Shown one piece after another: positions 4,125 through 48,371 of a stretch of DNA of 54,100 bases. The notes below the pieces were generated by a model. That model saw nothing but the letters and a program-made list of their open reading frames with translations. It ran no database searches and was not told the DNA's origin. A program made the translations under genes and the position numbers. Source of the DNA: Singulisphaera sp. GP187 (GTDB lineage: Bacteria > Planctomycetota > Planctomycetia > Gemmatales > Gemmataceae). The stretch is taken from assembly GCA_945905925.1 (NCBI GenBank), contig CAMDQN010000029.1:1-54100 (forward strand). The letters are read 5' to 3'. Numbering within the stretch: the first letter of the stretch is position 1; every line of letters begins with the position of its first letter.

Positions 4125-4880
4125 GTGGCCGATGGCTCAATCGATCTCGTTCAGCAGGTGCGGTCGCACCTCGAATCGCTCCGCGCCGCAGGCGTGCTGT
4201 TCGTGCCGCGTGGCGAGGCTCTCGTACACGCTCCCCTTAGGGTCGTGGCTAAACAGGCTGATGTGGCGCCCGTCGTAGCGCCAGAACAAGAAGACCCACT
4301 GGAAACACGCCAGCGCGAACTCGAAGTACTTCGCGCCGAAGTTGCCGCGTGCGACAAGTGTAGCGAGTTGTTCGCCACCCGCTTGCAAACCGTGTTCGGG
4401 ACCGGACCGCTCGACGCGGAGGTCGCGTTTGTGGGCGAAGCCCCCGGTTCGGGCGAAGACGCACAGGGCGAACCGTTCGTCGGCAAAAGCGGACACTTGC
4501 TCAGACGCATCATCGCCGCGTGCCAACTCCCGGCTTCGCGAGAGTATCTCTTCAACATCATCAAGTGCCGGCCGCCGAAGAACCGACCGACCACAACCAC
4601 CGAATGCGCCAACTGTCGCGACTTCTTCCGCCGCCAGTTCGACTTGGTGAAGCCCAAATACGTCGTCGCGCTCGGCCTCACCGCGTCGAAGTTGCTAACG
4701 CAGAAAGGCGGCGCGCTGAGCGGACTTCGCGGGCAGGTTCACGAGTATCGCGGGGTGCCGCTGGTTTGCACGCACCACCCCAACGACATCGAGAACGACG
4801 AAACCGGCCAGCTCAAGCGCGAGACATGGGACGACATGAAACTGCTTCTGCGCACGATGGGCCGCGAAGTACCGAAGTAG
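4125..4880 (+). CDS. Family 4 uracil-DNA glycosylase (Fe-S)
   Basis: The product has 251 residues. The C-terminal two thirds match the family 4 uracil-DNA glycosylase fold: motif [18 protein letters not shown], motif B around THHP near the C-terminus, and four Fe-S cluster cysteines at 76, 79, 148 and 164. The first 70 residues form a variable extension typical of bacterial members. The enzyme removes uracil from deaminated DNA. The GTG at 4125 is chosen as start because it follows an AGGTG-like ribosome site and excludes out-of-family residues. An upstream in-frame start at 4074 exists. The gene starts 103 bp after cysI. Its stop TAG is part of GTAGGACAGGC, the opening sequence of a palindromic repeat found intact at 48.3 kb. 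Confidence 0.88.
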
Positions 4881-5097: not shown

Positions 5098-8000
5098 ATG
5101 CGATTGTCCACATCCCGCCGTGCCACGCTGTTCGTCCTTCTTCTTGCTCCGGTCGCTTACGCTCCCGGTTCGCCCAATGCGCAGCCGAAGGACAAGGTCG
5201 ATCCTGACCACGTCGCGAAGTTTGCGAAGGGCGCCGAACTGTTCAAAACGACCGTGCGCGGCGTGCTTCAAGCCAAGTGCCTGAAGTGTCACAGCGGGGA
5301 ACGCCTCGAAGGCGCGCTCGACATGAACACCCGCGAGTCACTCCTGAAGGGCGGCGAGCGCGGTCCCGCGATCGTCAGCGGCGACCACAAAAAGAGCTTG
5401 CTATACCAGCTTTCGGCTCACCTGAAAGAGCCGCACATGCCACACGAGAAGGCCAAACTCCCAGACGCCGACATCGCGAAAATCGCGGAGTGGATCGACC
5501 TCGGTGCGCCCTACGACAAGCCATTCGTCGCGATCGACGAGACCGCCTGGACGAAGAAAGTTACTTTACCTGACGCCAAGAAGCACTGGGCCTACCAGCC
5601 CCTGGCACTTGCTAAGCCGCCAAGCGGCGCGCACCCTGTTGACGCCTTCCTCCTCGACAAGTTGGGGAAGGCTGGACTGAAGCCAAACCCAGCGACCGAC
5701 AAGCGAACACTGATCCGCCGTGCGTACTTGGGTCTGATTGGGTTGCCGCCCACGCCCGAACAAGTCGATGCGTTTCTCAAAGACGAAACGCCTGGCGCCT
5801 ACGACAAGGTCATCGACGGGTTGCTTGCGTCCCAACATTTTGGCGAGAAGCAAGCCAGGCACTGGCTCGACCTCGTGCGGTTCGCCGAGAGTCACGGCTT
5901 CGAGCACGACTACGACCGTCCCACTGCGTACCACTACCGCGACTTCGTCATCAAGGCGCTGAACTCGGACCTGCCGTTCGACACGTTCGCGAAGTGGCAA
6001 CTCGCGGGCGACGAGATCGCGCCCAACGATCCGCTCGCGGTGATGGCCACCGGCTACCTCGCGGCCGGCGTTCACAGCACGCAGATCACCAAAAACGAAG
6101 CCGAAAAGCACCGGTACGACGAGATGGACGACATGCTCGCGAACATCGGCACGACGTTCCTCGGCCTTACGGTCGGCTGCGCCCGGTGCCACGACCACAA
6201 GTTCGACGCGATTCCCGCACGCGACTACTACCGGATGCTCGCGGCGTTCACCACGGTCGTTCGCACGGAGGTGGAACTCGACCTCGACCCGCAGTTGTAC
6301 ACGCTCAAGAAGATGCAGTTCGACATTTCGCACCAGCAGTTCCTCGACGCGCTCGCGAAATACGAGAAGGAACAACTGCCGGCGAAGTTCGCGACGTGGG
6401 AGAAGGAGCGCGCCGGCAAGCCGCTGCCGCTCGACGGGTGGGTGCTGCCGAAGATCGCGGCAAGCAAGTCCGCGGGCGGCGCGACGCTCACCGCACAGGC
6501 TGACGGCAGTGTGCTGCTGTCCGGCAAGAACCCAACGACCGAAACACTCACCTTCGAGTTGGTCACCGACTTGCAAAACATCAAGTCCCTCCGACTCGAA
6601 TCGCTCGCGCACGCGTCGTTCGTGAAATCGGGGCCGGGTCGCGCCGCGAACGGTAACTTCGCGTTATCCGACATTCGCGTGCTGGCCGAAGCTCTTGAAA
6701 ACAAGGAGTCGCTGCCACCGGTGCGTGTGAAGCTCACCAGCGCACGCGCGACGTTCGAGCAGAAGGGATTGGGCATCGCGGCGGCGATCGACGACAGCGT
6801 GACGACCGCGTGGGCCATCGACCCGCAATTCGGGAAGGACCACGCCGCGGCGTTCGCGTTCGAGAAGCCGGTCGGGTTCGTGGGCGGCACGAAACTCACC
6901 ATCACGCTGTCGTTCAACAACAACACCGGGCACGGCATCGGCAAACCGCGGTTCAGCGTGAGCGCGAGTGAGAAGCCGGAGTTGGTCGGCACTGCGACGA
7001 CCGAAGCGGTTCGCGTCGCGCTTGCGCAAATGGCCGACAAACGCACGCCGGAGCAAGTGGCCGCCGTGATGAAGTGGTACGGCCCACAGGACGCGGAGTT
7101 CCAGAAACTTCAGAAGGCCGAGCGCGATCACTTCGCGACCGCACCGAAGCCCAACAAGGTGAAGGCGCTTGTGTCCAGCGAAGGCTTGCCCGCGATCAAA
7201 CTCCACACGCAAGCTGAAGCGGAGTTCCTCAAGGAAACGCACTTCCTGAAGCGCGGCGACCCGGCGCAGAAGACGGGTGTCGCGTCGGTCGCGTTCCTGC
7301 AAACGCTCATGCCGGACGCCGAAGCGCAATCGAAGTGGGTGAAACCGGCGCCGACGGGAAGCCGCTTGAGCTACCGGCGCACCGCGTTCGCGAACTGGAT
7401 GACCGACGCGAACGGCGGTGCCGGTCATCTCGTCGCTCGCGTGATCGTGAACCGACTGTGGGCGCAGCACTTCGGTCGCGGGTTGGTGAACACGGTCAGC
7501 GACTTCGGTATTCGCGGCGAATCGCCGAGCCACCCCGAGTTGCTCGACTACCTCGCAACGGAACTCATTCGCAACGGCTGGAAGTTAAAGCCGATTCACA
7601 AGCTCATCGTGACGAGCGCCGCGTACAAACAGAGCGCCACACGCGACGAAGCGAAAGCAAAGGCCGACCCGGAGAACAAGCTCGTGTGGCGGCAACCGGT
7701 GCGCCGGCTTCAAGCGGAGGTAATCCGCGACAGCATCCTTTCCGTGGGCGGGCGGCTGAACACCACGATGCACGGTGGCGGCACGCTCTCCGAAGAAAGC
7801 CCGCGGCGCAGCATCTACTTCACCATGAAGCGCAGCAAACTGATCCCCTCGCTGGTGGTGTTCGACGCGCCGGACGGCACGACCGGCGTCGGCGACCGGC
7901 CCAACACAACGGTCGCGCCGCAGGCGCTTCACCTGATGAACAACCCGCACGTTCGCGCCGCGGCCTACGGACTCGCCAGGCGCGCGTCGAATGACGGCAA

Positions 8001-8184
8001 GTTGGGCGACACCGAAAGCGTGACGGGCGCGTACAAGATCGCGCTGTGTCGCGAGCCGACGAAAGACGAACTCGCCGACGCGCTCGCGTTCCTGAAGCCG
8101 CATACCGGAGCCGCGCGCGAAACCGCGCTGGCCGACCTGTGCCAAGTGCTGTTCTGCCTGAACGAGTTCCTCTACGTGGAATAG
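5098..8184 (+). CDS. PSD1-type protein: planctomycete cytochrome C, DUF1549, DUF1553
   Basis: The product has 1028 residues. A signal peptide (about residues 1-30) is followed by a planctomycete cytochrome-c domain with CLKCH at 61-65, then DUF1549 with a second CARCH at 361-365, a carbohydrate-binding-like middle region (about 450-650), and C-terminal DUF1553. This architecture is a hallmark of Planctomycetes and usually pairs with a DUF1501 gene, as it does here 59 bp downstream. The proteins are predicted to be periplasmic or surface-associated and haem-binding. They are often linked to polysaccharide degradation loci, but no reaction is established. The start at 5098 is chosen because GAGGT lies 9 nt upstream and the signal peptide then begins directly. 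Confidence 0.9.
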   Translation: MRLSTSRRATLFVLLLAPVAYAPGSPNAQPKDKVDPDHVAKFAKGAELFKTTVRGVLQAKCLKCHSGERLEGALDMNTRESLLKGGERGPAIVSGDHKKSLLYQLSAHLKEPHMPHEKAKLPDADIAKIAEWIDLGAPYDKPFVAIDETAWTKKVTLPDAKKHWAYQPLALAKPPSGAHPVDAFLLDKLGKAGLKPNPATDKRTLIRRAYLGLIGLPPTPEQVDAFLKDETPGAYDKVIDGLLASQHFGEKQARHWLDLVRFAESHGFEHDYDRPTAYHYRDFVIKALNSDLPFDTFAKWQLAGDEIAPNDPLAVMATGYLAAGVHSTQITKNEAEKHRYDEMDDMLANIGTTFLGLTVGCARCHDHKFDAIPARDYYRMLAAFTTVVRTEVELDLDPQLYTLKKMQFDISHQQFLDALAKYEKEQLPAKFATWEKERAGKPLPLDGWVLPKIAASKSAGGATLTAQADGSVLLSGKNPTTETLTFELVTDLQNIKSLRLESLAHASFVKSGPGRAANGNFALSDIRVLAEALENKESLPPVRVKLTSARATFEQKGLGIAAAIDDSVTTAWAIDPQFGKDHAAAFAFEKPVGFVGGTKLTITLSFNNNTGHGIGKPRFSVSASEKPELVGTATTEAVRVALAQMADKRTPEQVAAVMKWYGPQDAEFQKLQKAERDHFATAPKPNKVKALVSSEGLPAIKLHTQAEAEFLKETHFLKRGDPAQKTGVASVAFLQTLMPDAEAQSKWVKPAPTGSRLSYRRTAFANWMTDANGGAGHLVARVIVNRLWAQHFGRGLVNTVSDFGIRGESPSHPELLDYLATELIRNGWKLKPIHKLIVTSAAYKQSATRDEAKAKADPENKLVWRQPVRRLQAEVIRDSILSVGGRLNTTMHGGGTLSEESPRRSIYFTMKRSKLIPSLVVFDAPDGTTGVGDRPNTTVAPQALHLMNNPHVRAAAYGLARRASNDGKLGDTESVTGAYKIALCREPTKDELADALAFLKPHTGAARETALADLCQVLFCLNEFLYVE

Positions 8185-8243
8185 GCCGGCCGAAACGAAC
8201 CATTACGAACACGGCCGGTACAGCCGGTCTTTCCGAGGATATC

Positions 8244-9701
8244 ATGCTGAACCTTCCCCGTTTGTTCGCGTCGCCCGAAGTTGCGTACCGCTCGCGCCGC
8301 GAGTTCCTCGCGCGCGCCGGCGGCGGTTTCGGTATGCTCGCGCTCGCCGATCTGCTGAACGCCGAAGACAAGCCGGCGACGCGCGCCGAAGACCCGCTCG
8401 CAGCCAAGAAGTCGCACTTCCCCGCAAAGGCCAAAAGCGTCATCTGGCTGTTCATGAACGGCGGGCCGTCGCAGGTCGACACCTGGGACCACAAGCCCGA
8501 ACTCGAAAAGCGCGACGGCCAGGAGTTGAAGGGTTTCGACCCGAACACCGGGTTCTTCGCCGCGCAGGTCGGCCCGCTGATGAAGTCGCCGTTCAAGTTC
8601 GCCAAACACGGGCAGTGCGGGAAGATGGTCAGCGATCTCTTCCCGCACATGGCCAAACACGTGGACAAGATGGCGTTCATCCACTCGCTCTGGAGCGACT
8701 CGAACAATCACTCACCGGCGCTGTTCAAGATGAATACCGGGATGGGGCGGATGGGGTTTCCGTGCGTCGGGAGTTGGGTCACGTATGGGATGGGCAGCGA
8801 GAGCCGCGACCTGCCCGCGTTCTGCGTGATGTACGACACGCTCGGTCGCGGCATTCCCAAAGGGCACTCGCTGAACTGGGGGGGCGGGTTCCTGCCGACC
8901 GTCTACCAGGGCACCGCGTTCAAGCCGCAGGGCGACCCAATCGACAACCTCACGCGCCCGAAGGACATCACCGATGAGCGGCAGCGGAGCCAACTCGACC
9001 TACTCGCGAAGCTGAACAAGAAGGCCGCCGACAAGCACCCCGGCGAAGCGGACTGGACCGCGCGTGTGGAGTCCTACGAACTCGCGTACCGGATGCAGAT
9101 GGCGGCCCCCGACGCGCTCGACTTATCGAAAGAAACCGCTGAAACAAAGAAAATGTACGGCCTCGACAACCCGAAGGCGACGCACTTCGCGAAGCAGTGT
9201 CTCACCGCGCGCCGGTTGGTCGAAAAGGGGGTCCGCTTCGTGCAAATCTACTCGGGTGGAATGGAGAACGACCTGAGTTGGGACGGGCACAACAACATCG
9301 CGAAGAACCACGGTGGGTTTGCACAGGAGACCGACCAACCCATCGCGGCACTGCTCGAAGACCTTCAGCGCAAAGGATTGCTCGAAAGCACGCTGGTGAT
9401 CTGGGGCGGCGAGTTCGGGCGTTTACCGATCGTGCAGAAGGGCAACGCGGGCCGCGACCACAACCCGCACGCGATCACCTACTGGCTCGCGGGCGGCGGT
9501 GTGAAGGGTGGTGTGAGTTACGGCGCGTCGGACGAGATCGGCTTCCGAGCAGCGGAGAACCGCGTGAGCATCAACGACTTCCACGCCACCGTGCTTCACC
9601 TGATGGGACTCGACCACAAGAAACTGACGTACCGCTACAACGGCCGCGACTTCCGATTGACGGATGTAGCGGGGACGGTGGTGAAGGACATCTTGGTGTA
9701 A
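8244..9701 (+). CDS. DUF1501 (sulfatase-superfamily fold) exported protein
   Basis: The product has 485 residues. It begins with a Tat-type signal: SRREFL at 17-22 followed by a glycine/alanine-rich hydrophobic stretch. The body is DUF1501, recognisable by FMNGGPSQVDTWDHKP near residue 72, GGEFGRLP and GRDHN toward the C-terminus. DUF1501 proteins share the alkaline-phosphatase/sulfatase fold, but their substrate is unknown. The ATG at 8244 has GAGGAT upstream, and the gene follows the PSD1 gene closely, making a typical two-gene planctomycete unit likely acting outside the cytoplasm. Stop TAA is 24 bp before the first of two palindromes flanking a RAYT gene. Confidence 0.9.
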   Translation: MLNLPRLFASPEVAYRSRREFLARAGGGFGMLALADLLNAEDKPATRAEDPLAAKKSHFPAKAKSVIWLFMNGGPSQVDTWDHKPELEKRDGQELKGFDPNTGFFAAQVGPLMKSPFKFAKHGQCGKMVSDLFPHMAKHVDKMAFIHSLWSDSNNHSPALFKMNTGMGRMGFPCVGSWVTYGMGSESRDLPAFCVMYDTLGRGIPKGHSLNWGGGFLPTVYQGTAFKPQGDPIDNLTRPKDITDERQRSQLDLLAKLNKKAADKHPGEADWTARVESYELAYRMQMAAPDALDLSKETAETKKMYGLDNPKATHFAKQCLTARRLVEKGVRFVQIYSGGMENDLSWDGHNNIAKNHGGFAQETDQPIAALLEDLQRKGLLESTLVIWGGEFGRLPIVQKGNAGRDHNPHAITYWLAGGGVKGGVSYGASDEIGFRAAENRVSINDFHATVLHLMGLDHKKLTYRYNGRDFRLTDVAGTVVKDILV

Positions 9702-9725
9702 ACAGAAGAGATTGGCCAAACCTGA

Positions 9726-9815
9726 TAGCCGCAAGCCGAAGGCGAGCGCGCCACTTGCACATCTCATTGACGTCTGAGGTGTGCAAGTGGCGCGCTCGCC
9801 TCCGGCTTGCGGCTA
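9726..9815. repeat. REP-type palindrome, upstream flank of RAYT gene
   Basis: A near-perfect inverted repeat has arms 9726-9760 and 9781-9815 with one mismatch in 35 bp. Pairing continues inward to about 9766/9775 with one G-T pair. The outer sequence TAGCCGCAAGCC is shared with the palindrome at 10449-10520, so two members of one family bracket the transposase gene. It is the expected arrangement for REP sequences around a RAYT. Confidence 0.92.
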
Positions 9816-9834
9816 ACCAAACAGGAACGCCACC

Positions 9835-10431
9835 ATGATCGTTGGCTACCATGTGTCGTTCAGCGCGTATGGCTTCTGGCTACCGAACGATCCGCGCGGC
9901 TCGTGGTCCGATTTCGTCGGGAAGTGGGAACTGTATCGCGCCGCCGGAAAAGCAACGAAGACGACTGAGACCAAGTCGCTGGCACGCCGTCAGCACGATC
10001 GTTCGCTGCGACTCGCGGCCAAGCGCGAACTCGATCGCGCCCCGGTGCGGTTCACAGCAGAGCAGATCTCGTCGATTGGGCAGGCGTTCGGCGCGTACGT
10101 CGCGACGTCCGAGCTATCCGTGTGGGCGTGTGCGATCATGCCCGATCACGTTCACCTCGTCTTCGCACCACACCGGCTCGAACCGAAAGAGCTGGTTATC
10201 AAACTGAAATCGGCCGCAACGTCACGCCTCGTTGAAGAGGGGATTCACCCGTTTCAACATTTGAAGCTGGCCAATGGCCCGCCGCCCAAGTGCTTCGCTC
10301 AAGGCGAGTGGGTCATCTTCATCGACCCGGAAGACGTGGCATGGCACGTCGAGTACGTCGAGAACAACCCCATCAAAGCCGGGCTGGCGCGCCAGGAGTG
10401 GGATTTCGTCAAGCGCCCTGAGTTGAAGTAA
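9835..10431 (+). CDS. REP-associated tyrosine transposase (RAYT, IS200-like HUH)
   Basis: The product has 198 residues. The HUH nuclease motif is visible as MPDHVHLVF with His105 and His107, and the candidate nucleophile is Tyr174 in EYVENNPIKAGL. The N-terminal GYHVSFSAYGFWLPNDPRG and the overall length match IS200/Y1-related RAYT proteins rather than autonomous IS200 (about 150 residues). Such enzymes nick single-stranded palindromic REP DNA and are thought to spread REP elements. The gene sits between two related long palindromes (9726-9815 and 10449-10520), and palindromes bearing GTAG occur elsewhere in this window. AGGAA lies just before ATG 9835. No frameshift or missing key residue was seen, so it may be active. 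Confidence 0.9.
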   Translation: MIVGYHVSFSAYGFWLPNDPRGSWSDFVGKWELYRAAGKATKTTETKSLARRQHDRSLRLAAKRELDRAPVRFTAEQISSIGQAFGAYVATSELSVWACAIMPDHVHLVFAPHRLEPKELVIKLKSAATSRLVEEGIHPFQHLKLANGPPPKCFAQGEWVIFIDPEDVAWHVEYVENNPIKAGLARQEWDFVKRPELK

Positions 10432-10448
10432 CAACAAGAGCAGAAGTT

Positions 10449-10520
10449 GTTAGCCGCAAGCCGCAGGCGAGCGCGCCACCTATGCGTAGGTGGCGTGCTC
10501 GCCTGCGGCTTGCGGCTAAC
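10449..10520. repeat. REP-type palindrome, downstream flank of RAYT gene
   Basis: The arms 10449-10482 and 10487-10520 pair over 34 bp with one G-T pair and one central mismatch, around a 4-nt tip. The sequence GTTAGCCGCAAGCCGCAGG matches the 9726-9815 element closely. It lies 17 nt after the RAYT stop and 10 nt beyond the stop of the convergent desaturase gene, so it can also serve both as a 3' end structure. Confidence 0.92.
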
Positions 10521-10530
10521 AGGCCATCGA

Positions 10531-11493
10531 CTACAGTGCCTGCTCAGCCTGCTCTTCTGACTCAAGCACCTTGCTGTTCAGCGCCTTTTCGGTCGGTTCG
10601 CGGATGTCCCACACCAGCCCGACCAGCCCCAGCGCGCGGATGATGTAGTAGCTCATGTCGATCTCCCACCACTTGAACCCCTGACGCGCACAGCTCTGGT
10701 AGTGGTGGTGGTTGTTGTGCCAGCCCTCGCCCATCGTCAGGATCGCGGCCCACCAGCAGTTCTTGCTCTGGTCCGTCGTTTCGTAGCGGCGCGTGCCGAA
10801 CAGGTGACACGCCGAGTTCACGAGGAACGTCGCGTGATACAGCAACACGGTTCCGACCAGGAAACTCCACACCACGCCGCTCCAGTCGGCGAGGAAGTAG
10901 CAAAGCACCCCGAGCAAGATTCCGGGCACCCACGTGAAGAACGTATCCAGCACTCGCAGTTCGGGGTAGCGCTCGAAGTCCTTCATCGCGGGCGCGTTGC
11001 GGAATCGCCCGGAGATCACCCAACCGACGTGCGACCACCACACCGTTCGCACGATCGGTGAGTGCGGGTCGTCTTCCTGATCCGAGTGCTTGTGGTGATG
11101 CCGGTGGTGCCCGGCCCACCACAGCGGCCCTTTCTGCATCGCGGCGCAACCGATCCACGCGAGCGCGAACTGGAACCAGCGCGACGTCTTATACGCGCGG
11201 TGCGCGAAGTACCGGTGGTACACGCCCGTGATGCCGAACATCCGCACCACGTAGAACAGCAGCCCCAGCCCAATGGATTCCCACGTGATCGGCACGAAGA
11301 ACGGTGTCACCACCGCCGCAACGTGCAACCCGATGAACGGGATCGCGCGAAGCCTCGCGTACCACCCCACGGGCGGGTGCGGGAGTTTCAGTGCGGGAAG
11401 TCTCGGAACGGGAAGTGCGGGAACGACGCCCGATTGCGGTGCGGCTGTCGAAATGTGAACGGCTCCGTGGATGTTCCTGGCGGGTGCGAGCAT
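10531..11493 (-). CDS. Acyl-CoA/acyl-lipid delta-9-type fatty acid desaturase
   Basis: The product has 320 residues from ATG 11493. Three histidine boxes of membrane di-iron desaturases are present: HRYFAH (93-98), HHRHHH (129-134) and HNNHHH (259-264), with hydrophobic segments between them. Spacing and motif forms match the stearoyl-CoA desaturase/DesC group, which introduces a double bond in long-chain acyl groups at the cytoplasmic membrane and needs an electron-donor protein not found here. An alternative TTG start 18 nt upstream would add six residues. Neither start has a strong ribosome site. The gene is monocistronic and convergent with the RAYT. Confidence 0.9.
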   Translation of the reverse strand: MLAPARNIHGAVHISTAAPQSGVVPALPVPRLPALKLPHPPVGWYARLRAIPFIGLHVAAVVTPFFVPITWESIGLGLLFYVVRMFGITGVYHRYFAHRAYKTSRWFQFALAWIGCAAMQKGPLWWAGHHRHHHKHSDQEDDPHSPIVRTVWWSHVGWVISGRFRNAPAMKDFERYPELRVLDTFFTWVPGILLGVLCYFLADWSGVVWSFLVGTVLLYHATFLVNSACHLFGTRRYETTDQSKNCWWAAILTMGEGWHNNHHHYQSCARQGFKWWEIDMSYYIIRALGLVGLVWDIREPTEKALNSKVLESEEQAEQAL

Positions 11494-11579
11494 CGGGAGG
11501 GGCGATTCCAAAGTAAATTAGGACTGCAAGACGGCAAATGCTCGCACGAAATCGGGAATCGTACAACACCTACAATAGA

Positions 11580-46656: not shown

Positions 46657-48321
46657 ATGAAACTCTTCCTCTCCCTGTTCGCCATCGCGCTGCTCGCGCT
46701 CCCCGTGAGCGCCGCCGAACCGGAATACGACCTCGTCATCCGCAACGGGCGCGTTGTGGATGGCACCGGCAACCCGTGGTTTCACGGCGATGTCGCGATC
46801 ACCGGCGACAAGATCGTAGCCGTCGGTCGCGTGCCGGAAGGAAAAGCCAAGCGCACCATCGAGGCGAAGGGACTTGTGGTCGCGCCCGGCTTCATCGACA
46901 TTCACTCGCACTCGGACGAACTGCTCCTCGAAGACGGTCACGCGCAGAGCAAGATTCGGCAAGGCGTGACGACGGAGGTTCTCGGCGAAGGCAAGTCCGT
47001 CGGCCCACTGCGGGGCCAACTCGAACCGCGCGTCATGAAAGGCCGCGGCGGCAAAACGTTCGGCTGGGCGTCCGTTGACGGCTACTTCAATCTCATCGAC
47101 AAGGAAGGCGCGAGTGTGAACGTCGCGACTTACGTCGGCCTCGACAACGTGTGGGAATCGGTGATGGGAAAGTCGTACGCACGGCCCACCGCCAAGCAAC
47201 TCGACGAGATGAGGAAACTCGTCGAAGAAGCAATGAAAGACGGCGCGCTCGGGCTGTCCACCTACATGATGATGCCGCCCGGTTCGCTCGCGACGACCGA
47301 CGATCTCGTGGAACTGTGCAAGGTCGTGAAGAAATACGGCGGACTTTACTCGTCGCACATCCGCACGGAAGGCCTCGGCGTACTCGAAGCCATCAAGGAA
47401 ACAATCGAGATCGGTGAAAAGACCGGCGTGCCGGTGGACATCATTCACCTGAAGATCGCGGACGAGAAACTGTGGGGGAAGATGAAGGACGTGATCGCGC
47501 TCATCGAAGACGCGCGCAAGCGCGGCGTGAACGTGCAAGCGAACGTGTACCCGTACACGCGCGGCAACAACAACCTCGCGAGCATCATTCCGCCGTGGGC
47601 GCACGAAGGCGGACTCGCGAAAATGATGGAGCGACTCAAAGACCCGAAGGGCCGCGAGCGCCTCAAGAAAGACATCAAAGACGGCGTGCCGGGATGGTAC
47701 AACCACTACACCGCGGTCGGCGGCGACTGGTCGCGGATGCTCGTCAGCGGTCGCGGCACTTACGAAGGCTTGACGATGGATCGCGTCATCGCGGCGAAGT
47801 CGAAAGGCAAGACGCCGGTGCCAGACCCGCTCGACATTCTCTTGGACATCCTGATTGAACAAGGCGGGTCGGTGCCCACGGTGTTCGCGCACCATGACGA
47901 GAAGGACATGAACCTCGCGATGCAGCAACCGTGGTGCTCCATCGGCTCCGACGGCAGTGCTTACGCGACCGAAGGCGCGTTGAAGCGCGGCAACCCGCAT
48001 CCGCGAAACTTCGGCACGTTCCCGCGTGTGCTCGGTGTGTACGTTCGCGATCGCGGCGTACTGAAACTCGAAGACGCAGTGCGCAAAATGACCTCGCTGA
48101 ATGCCGCGAAGATCGGCCTGCGCGATCGCGGCACGATCGCGGTCGGGAACTTCGCAGACGTGACACTCTTCGACGCGGACAAGGTAATCGATAAGTCCAC
48201 GTACACCACGCCGTTCGCGTACAACGACGGCATCGAGTACGTAATCGTGAACGGCACAGTGGTGTTGGACAAGGGCAAGCACACCGACGCGATGCCGGGC
48301 CGCGCGCTGCGGAAGAAGTAG
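46657..48321 (+). CDS. Secreted D-aminoacylase-like amidohydrolase
   Basis: The product has 554 residues with a signal peptide (about 1-20). It has the N-acyl-D-amino-acid deacylase fold: HSHSD (83-87), SSHIRTEG, DIIHLKIADEK and late GSDGSAY. The family's bridging-metal cysteine (normally in GNCG after GVTTEV) is absent. The sequence reads GVTTEVLGEGKSVGP (103-117), so the metal site differs. It could hydrolyse N-acyl-D-amino acids or related cell-wall compounds outside the cytoplasm. ATG 46657 has GAGG upstream. Its stop TAG is the start of a perfect palindrome. Confidence 0.82.
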   Translation: MKLFLSLFAIALLALPVSAAEPEYDLVIRNGRVVDGTGNPWFHGDVAITGDKIVAVGRVPEGKAKRTIEAKGLVVAPGFIDIHSHSDELLLEDGHAQSKIRQGVTTEVLGEGKSVGPLRGQLEPRVMKGRGGKTFGWASVDGYFNLIDKEGASVNVATYVGLDNVWESVMGKSYARPTAKQLDEMRKLVEEAMKDGALGLSTYMMMPPGSLATTDDLVELCKVVKKYGGLYSSHIRTEGLGVLEAIKETIEIGEKTGVPVDIIHLKIADEKLWGKMKDVIALIEDARKRGVNVQANVYPYTRGNNNLASIIPPWAHEGGLAKMMERLKDPKGRERLKKDIKDGVPGWYNHYTAVGGDWSRMLVSGRGTYEGLTMDRVIAAKSKGKTPVPDPLDILLDILIEQGGSVPTVFAHHDEKDMNLAMQQPWCSIGSDGSAYATEGALKRGNPHPRNFGTFPRVLGVYVRDRGVLKLEDAVRKMTSLNAAKIGLRDRGTIAVGNFADVTLFDADKVIDKSTYTTPFAYNDGIEYVIVNGTVVLDKGKHTDAMPGRALRKK

Positions 48322-48371
48322 GACAGGCTTCCAGCCTGTCCAAAAAGAGACAGGCTGGAAGCCTGTCCTAC
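48318..48371. repeat. Perfect GTAGGACAGGC palindrome starting at a stop codon
   Basis: The arms 48318-48340 and 48349-48371 are exact reverse complements (23 bp) with an 8-nt loop. Each arm is itself a hairpin (GACAGGCT/AGCCTGTC, loop TCC), a REP-like double structure. The TAG stop of the amidohydrolase gene (48319-48321) is inside the GTAG. A degenerate copy lies at 4877-4912. Confidence 0.96.

Follow-up and report, generated by a model that had tools for sequence, protein, structure and literature searches.

The window, the whole 54,100-nucleotide stretch analyzed here, is contig C29; the assembly to which it belongs (G000, the own genome) has 251 contigs, totals 6.47 Mb and is 96.6% complete. 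Between a DUF1501 gene (8046-9701, + strand) and a fatty acid desaturase gene (10531-11511, - strand) lies a gene (9835-10431, + strand) that begins with ATG and encodes a 198-residue TnpA-REP-like Y1 transposase, or RAYT. The HUH residues H105 and H107 are contained in a DHVH motif and the catalytic tyrosine Y174 in a YVENNP motif. The initial annotation had described two long palindromes bracketing the transposase with a common outer sequence, and this was borne out: TAGCCGCAAGCC opens every arm of both palindromes, and the distance from gene to palindrome is 18 nt on either side. The upstream palindrome (9726-9815, the dimer itself spanning 9725-9816) ends 18 nt before the ATG, has arms of 41 nt that are 95% complementary and folds at -55.1 kcal/mol (z = -15.3, 200 shuffles). 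The core of the downstream palindrome (10448-10521, the dimer itself spanning 10449-10520) starts 18 nt past the stop codon, and its 35-nt arms are 97% complementary.

The transposase is intact as first stated, its two HUH histidines and its tyrosine being unchanged in 12 and in 40 aligned homologs (40/40). The NP that follows the Tyr motif (N178 and P179) is also present in 40/40 homologs and gives YxxNP, in contrast to the YxxxQ of IS200. The protein scored 26.3 bits against Pfam Y1_Tnp (cut-off 23). The top-scoring NCBIfam model was REP_Tyr_transpos (NF047646), at 41.6 bits below its cut-off of 80, whereas transpos_IS200 scored 23.2 bits; REP_Tyr_transpos was matched by 40/40 homologs at E <= 0.01. 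With an AlphaFold2 model (pLDDT 88.7) Foldseek returned the E. coli RAYT 4er8 (E 2.1e-5) and IS200/IS605 transposases (E 1.1e-5), and structure alignment gave Z scores of 11.4 for 4er8 (120 aligned residues) and 11.7 for the IS200/IS605 TnpA 2vju. The fold search does not separate a RAYT from an IS200/IS605 TnpA, as the predicted structure matches both about equally. Thg1 and others that appeared in the fold searches (Z about 8 to 9) were taken to reflect the common ferredoxin-like fold.

Given this common fold, and a palindrome at equal distance on either side of the gene, the locus could be read as an autonomous IS200/IS605-like insertion sequence, with the palindromes as its ends and the dispersed units described below as non-autonomous derivatives. 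We consider this improbable. The motif YVENNP is of class 2 rather than the YxxxQ of IS200, REP_Tyr_transpos outscores transpos_IS200, and the own genome has a single copy of the gene, the second match being a 52%-identical paralog with different REPs. The own genome has three Y1 matches in all, none near-identical. The paralog (G000 C99:12951-13529, L087) has its own dispersed hairpin, present in 29 copies, and in its downstream palindrome the tags lie inside, not outside. The third Y1 gene (G000 C25:56347-56682, L001) is IS200-like at 46.5 bits (cut-off 55) and is without clear flanking dimers.

The sequence that recurs beyond the locus is a 24-nt core, TTAGCCGCAAGCCGNAGGCGAGCG. The initial annotation had treated the long palindrome as the element of the family; it does flank the gene and is a dimer of inverted units, but only the 24 nt are repeated. 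The upstream dimer consists of unit 1 (9725-9748, + strand, ATAGCCGCAAGCCGAAGGCGAGCG, one mismatch to the core) and unit 2 (9793-9816, - strand, TTAGCCGCAAGCCGGAGGCGAGCG, no mismatch), with a variable middle. The downstream dimer consists of unit 3 (10450-10473, + strand, TTAGCCGCAAGCCGCAGGCGAGCG, no mismatch) and unit 4 (10496-10519, - strand, TTAGCCGCAAGCCGCAGGCGAGCA, one mismatch), each preceded by a G, with a hairpin in the middle. In both dimers the units are inverted with their tags outside. One related unit stands alone at 4229-4252 (- strand); its hairpin is of the CCC/GGG type, and it has two mismatches and the tag GTTTAGC.

The limits of the unit were read from an unselected sample of 80 stretches of contigs C1-C23 (1,596,813 bases, the 1.6-Mb sample), which excluded the window and contained 49 units at up to four mismatches, against one in the control. 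Conservation in the 49 units is 1.38 bits at position -1 and no more than 0.19 bits between -2 and -12; at the other end it is 1.86 bits at +24 and no more than 0.55 bits between +25 and +40. The conserved stretch runs from the G ahead of TTAGC to base 24. The symmetry of the dimers ends there too, with 3 to 8 matches per 20 bases outside the tags. As conservation and symmetry both stop at the unit boundary, each long palindrome of the window is a dimer of two units with a variable middle. The tag GTTAGC is itself well conserved (G at -1 in 43/49, T at +1 in 49/49 and T at +2 in 46/49), and the 49 sampled units do not have the canonical GTAG or GTRG directly before the hairpin.

A search of the own genome returned 183 units at up to three mismatches (96 + 87) and none with the reversed-pattern control. 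The core is matched exactly in at least 53 units among the first 100 of the 183 matches listed. In the 1.6-Mb sample the units form 36 elements, 23 single units and 13 dimers with spacers of -2 to 36 nt, and tags face outward in 13/13 dimers; two of the 23 singles have a worn partner unit beside them (5 and 7 mismatches). When genes were predicted with a hexamer script, 29/49 sampled units were wholly outside genes and 8/49 at a gene edge, compared with 13.1% and 2.8% of random places. The many dispersed intergenic copies that the initial annotation had anticipated are thus present, with 37/49 sampled units outside genes or at a gene edge, and a restriction of the palindromes to the neighborhood of this gene is excluded by the genome-wide count. 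The proposal of a RAYT beside its own REPs, the layout of a REP-mobilizing system, is supported by these units. We regard it as highly probable that the locus is a REPtron, that is, a RAYT (TnpA-REP, a predicted Y1/HUH single-strand DNA endonuclease) together with its own 24-nt REPs, which form one dimer at either end of the gene.

The location of the elements is not random with respect to gene direction. The 36 elements comprise 22 in tandem spacers, 4 in convergent spacers, none in divergent spacers, 9 inside genes and 1 at a contig end; the deficit in divergent spacers (0/26 intergenic elements) has p = 0.0026 by spacer count. In the 22 tandem spacers the median distance from the upstream stop codon to the element is 13 nt. 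The same spacer distribution is reported for GTAG REPs in the available text of PMC3733652. Placement directly after stop codons and absence between divergent genes would also be expected of host elements, such as terminators or mRNA 3' ends, that spread by recombination and have a transposase adjacent by chance. The palindromes, however, have no terminator-like T-run: the search gave one weak site, and shuffles a mean of 0.9. Together with the association of tag and hairpin with RAYT genes given below, this makes the host-element explanation very improbable. A search for sigma-70 promoters at the locus found none, and Rfam matches there (plant and animal microRNA and sRNA models) were far under their gathering scores and were dismissed as the usual artefact of long hairpins.

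The remaining 12/49 sampled units lie inside predicted genes, various in kind and in reading frame, 8 on the same strand and 4 on the opposite strand. The idea that these in-gene copies encode a motif conserved among PSD1 (DUF1553) proteins was dropped, because translation shows different genes, both strands and several frames. PSD1 (DUF1553)-type genes do contain REP units, which are found in either orientation and sit in the linker that precedes the PIDAF motif (G000 C3:6861, C14:20491 and several loci of the congener G003). A tie between tag length and hairpin type within the own genome was unsupported by eye, with mixed cases. At two places, L288 (G003) and G000 C17 about 7290-7420, a REP dimer is nested within mirrored runs of GTGTTTGG / CCAAACAC.

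The fold of the unit can be written CGC-AA-GCC-GNA-GGC-GA-GCG; the mismatch inside it is AA/GA or GA/GA, and the 5' tag, (G)TTAGC, is unpaired. As DNA a single own-type unit folds weakly (-4.3 kcal/mol, z -0.79), and the hairpin formed by the whole palindrome is much more stable. With the tag and outer stem held fixed and the nine inner bases free, the inner 3-bp stem was fully paired in 28/32 instances, whereas shuffles gave a mean of 20.5 and a maximum of 25 in 2000; 4 of the 28 paired stems use a different stem (CCC/GGG, CTC/GAG). In a sister family, the G003 paralog type (60 distinct units typed, among the matches listed), 97.9% of cells are paired versus 91.5% in shuffles, and there are 24 double-sided changes versus 5.6 in shuffles, a number that 0/500 shuffles reach. 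The perfect hairpins of other families fold strongly (z -4.19 for that of G031 and -5.71 for that of G022). Hence the hairpin inside the own unit, weak by energy alone, is supported by sequence comparison.

The RAYT protein was matched in 22/59 related genomes. A scan of 84,980 species genomes gave 231 loci, of which the best 80 were kept; by their record titles, 78 of these best 80 are planctomycete and two are Vicinamibacteraceae MAG. The best 80 loci, the window RAYT and the paralog fall into 70 clusters at 75% identity, which served as a non-redundant set. Within about 150 nt of these RAYT genes GTTTAGC was the top enriched 7-mer, found at 40/70 loci (112 occurrences) versus 1/70 controls (one occurrence), the controls being stretches 1 kb away from the genes. 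At least two copies beside the RAYT were found at 34 of the 70 loci for GTTTAGC (0 controls), 10 for GTTAGC (0), 3 for GTGAAGC (1), 2 for GTTTCGC (2) and 1 for GTTCAGC (0). GTAGC is hardly enriched at the RAYTs of the clade, with at least two copies at 7/70 loci versus 4/70 controls. None of these six tag words was found at 16/70 loci. The enrichment of GTTTAGC beside RAYTs argues against the palindromes being host elements, as does the variation of hairpin families with the RAYT.

A different tag raises the matter of the residues that read it. In a profile alignment to 4er8, which is weak in the tag-reading stretch (domain score 14.1 bits), E. coli residues W94, Q95, E100, H101 and R104 fall on F154, A155, V160, I161 and D164. 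By this weak alignment the 40 homologs have W or F at the place of W94 (25/15), A, G, S or T at that of Q95, no E (one D) at that of E100, no H (two R) at that of H101, and D, N and others at that of R104; unlike in the E. coli RAYT, the Gln, Glu, His and Arg are missing there. W94, Q95 and R104 are described as conserved in the subclasses with typical REPs, where the region probably reads GTAG (PMC6006769, available text). Conservation of W94, Q95 and R104 as in the GTAG-reading subclasses 2.2, 2.4, 2.5 and 2.7 is absent in the clade, there being no Q and no R in the 40 homologs at the places given by the weak alignment. On most of the features examined the locus is a RAYT/REP system, the exceptions being the tag, which is not GTAG, and a score below the curated NCBIfam cut-off. 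RAYTs and REPs are already known; the type that appears to be new is this planctomycete clade of RAYTs, whose tag is GTT(T)AGC. No account of a GTTTAG-tagged REP family was found in the literature searched, supplementary files and most subscription journals being outside its reach. R. baltica (Planctomycetota) is named in PMC3733652, in the text available, as having several REP families, whose sequences lie outside this comparison.

To see how hairpin families are distributed, hairpins from beside RAYTs were counted in 16 genomes picked for RAYT or REP content. The G031-type hairpin occurs 652 times in G031 and the G022-type 168 times in G022, each with 0 in the other 15 genomes, and the G008-type (up to two mismatches) 52 times in G008, 8 in G004 and 0 in 14. 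Type B, which lies beside RAYTs of G004, G028 and G021, is more widespread (G014 150, G033 83, G028 75, G008 36, G004 13, G021 10 and 0 in 10); its commonest host is G014, where the best RAYT match is just 37%. The own-paralog-type hairpin has nearly equal counts in G003 (30) and at home (29), with 6 in G018, 3 in G010 and 0 in 12, and the G003-paralog type numbers 78 in G008, 59 in G004, 33 in G003, 2 in G000 and 0 in 12. Own-type REPs were matched in 15 of 59 genomes, ten of which have at least 10 (G000, G035, G010, G003, G018, G008, G015, G034, G014 and G031). A RAYT at E <= 1e-40 was found in 12 genomes, five of them among these ten. Own-type REPs are present without a close RAYT (E > 1e-40) in G010 (144), G018 (65; assembly 65% complete), G015 (56; assembly 68% complete), G034 (36) and G014 (14). 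From the counts in 16 and 59 genomes, some hairpin families are private, others are common to relatives, and some populations are without a close RAYT. In a sample from G031, 22/28 elements were inverted REP pairs with outward-facing tags.

At one syntenic locus (L176, L179 and L193) the neighboring genes are 80-96% identical and the RAYTs 65, 71 and 82%, and the flanking hairpins differ; in a second case (L087/L227) the RAYT is 82% and the neighbors are 91-94% identical. These loci, judged by their sequences, would fit co-divergence of protein and hairpin. That RAYT loci remain syntenic in some groups is a further point against an IS200/IS605-like insertion sequence. We lean toward an undescribed Planctomycetota RAYT subclass with a tag superfamily of its own, in which GTTTAGC (GTTAGC in this species) would replace GTAG, the GTAG-reading residues would be rebuilt, and each RAYT would drive a private REPIN family whose hairpin changes with the protein, even at one locus.

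The populations without a close RAYT bear on a further explanation, in which the RAYT/REP pair is the same but inert here, the REPs being leftovers from an ancestor and the RAYT either serving another function or being lost. The state of G031, the genome richest in exact copies (652), is in its favor: all three of its RAYT-like matches (L072, L091 and L344) contain an in-frame TAG, each at a different place, and TAG is a normal stop in G031 (0 interior stops in 15,252 aligned residues). The invariance of the catalytic residues in 40 homologs and the units of the own genome that match the core exactly weigh on the other side.

Comparison with G003 gives evidence for both. Of 20 placed rows five were dropped as paralogs (L294, L299, L313, L333 and L337) and two L303 rows are one site, leaving 14 G003 elements that can be placed on own DNA; the REP is present in the own genome at nine, and five are G003-only. 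As 9/14 comparable sites are common to both genomes, the REP population appears to be largely older than the split from G003, with turnover. The nine common sites favor an inert pair and the five G003-only sites disfavor it; at four of the five the own genome has another palindrome, a point for the host-element reading. The window RAYT is also missing from the orthologous spacer of six congeners (G003, G007, G009, G012, G014 and G015), in which the DUF1501 and desaturase genes are adjacent without it, which again speaks against an inert pair. We judge inertness to be possible but rather unlikely.

The RAYT-less site in six congeners would likewise suit an autonomous insertion sequence, as would the arrangement in two related MAGs (L221/L222), where the neighboring genes are conserved and the homologous RAYT cassette between them, flanking repeats included, is inverted in one relative to the other. 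All six spacers contain other palindromes and resist nucleotide-level alignment, so the direction of change and the exact joint are not readable there. The aligned element pairs of G003 and the own genome likewise do not align base by base, and hence neither comparison yields a target-site rule. In G014 the spacer that corresponds to window 9702-10530 (L264, about 700-1500) holds a different RAYT-like gene, flanked by GTAGGGTGCGGTCGAG palindromes and split over two frames (PEHLH, YTHYNP), so that this one site has two unrelated types of RAYT.

How such a REPtron would work can be proposed from the biochemistry of TnpA-REP and IS200/IS605. A REP dimer would become single-stranded, for example during replication, and the RAYT protein would bind the tagged hairpin of this single-stranded dimer. 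Y174 would then cut adjacent to the tagged hairpin, and the dimer would reach further intergenic sites by copying or by relocation. Jointly, tag and hairpin would assign each RAYT its own REP family, and the dispersed element would be two inverted REPs with tags outside, like a REPIN. By analogy, then, the window RAYT may bind, cut and transpose its REPs and may do so at present. The system may be or have been active, as the initial annotation had it; most of the comparable REP sites are old.

Known systems share parts of this organization. With the E. coli TnpA-REP/RAYT (4er8; subclass 2.2, available text of PMC6006769) the protein shares the Y1/HUH fold and the NP after the Tyr motif. As in the E. 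coli y and z REPs (PMC8266576, available text), there is a 5' tag before a mismatched hairpin (AA-GC in E. coli, AA/GA or GA/GA here), and dimers are intergenic. Differences from the E. coli RAYT are the tag, (G)TTAGC or GTTTAGC here and GTAG there, and a longer N-terminal insert here, with YGFWLPNDPRGS. The inverted REP pairs with tags outside and the single-copy RAYT beside its own family recall the REPINs of Pseudomonas fluorescens SBW25, as described in the available text of PMC3116915; tag and hairpins differ from those, and here 23/36 sampled elements are single units. Class 3 TnpA-Y1 of Planctomycetes and Acidobacteria (PMC6006769, available text) are alike in phylum, extended N-terminal conservation and flanking dispersed hairpins, and unlike in having NHVH, YV[VI]xEQ and a CnGA foot, where this system has DHVH, YVENNP and GTT(T)AGC. 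TIRtrons (PMC3733652) also have a RAYT-like gene between long inverted repeats, some of them dispersed; the available text describes TIRs as unrelated to GTAG REPs, some sharing GGGGWSAS, whereas the long repeats here are dimers of a tagged REP. IS200/IS605 TnpA (IS608, ISDra2) have in common the fold, the predicted HUH-Y1 chemistry and, presumably, recognition of subterminal hairpins; unlike them, this system has a YxxNP motif and gene-free hairpin dimers in dispersed positions, with no multi-copy autonomous mobility that we could see.

To our knowledge, recognition between RAYT and REP is understood in detail for GTAG-tagged systems only. A clade with another tag, replaced tag-reading residues and many natural pairs of RAYT and hairpin, including syntenic pairs in congeners, makes recognition and co-evolution accessible to swap experiments, which could show what residues are responsible for reading the tag and for reading the hairpin, and whether altering both redirects the enzyme. 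Dispersed REPs are thereby documented in a phylum with few described RAYT systems.

The window contains 23 inverted repeats, two of which are the RAYT/REP system. The initial annotation took the other palindromes as a sign of RAYT activity, which is unsupported: the seven tested (I1, I2, I4, I6, I8, I9 and I10) are different sequences with 0 to 4 matches in the 1.6-Mb sample and belong to other families. Elsewhere in the window, at 48318-48371, lies a GTAG-tagged palindrome, GTAGGACAGGCTTCCAGCCTGTC, which resembles a canonical REP dimer, is of another family and has four matches in the 1.6-Mb sample.
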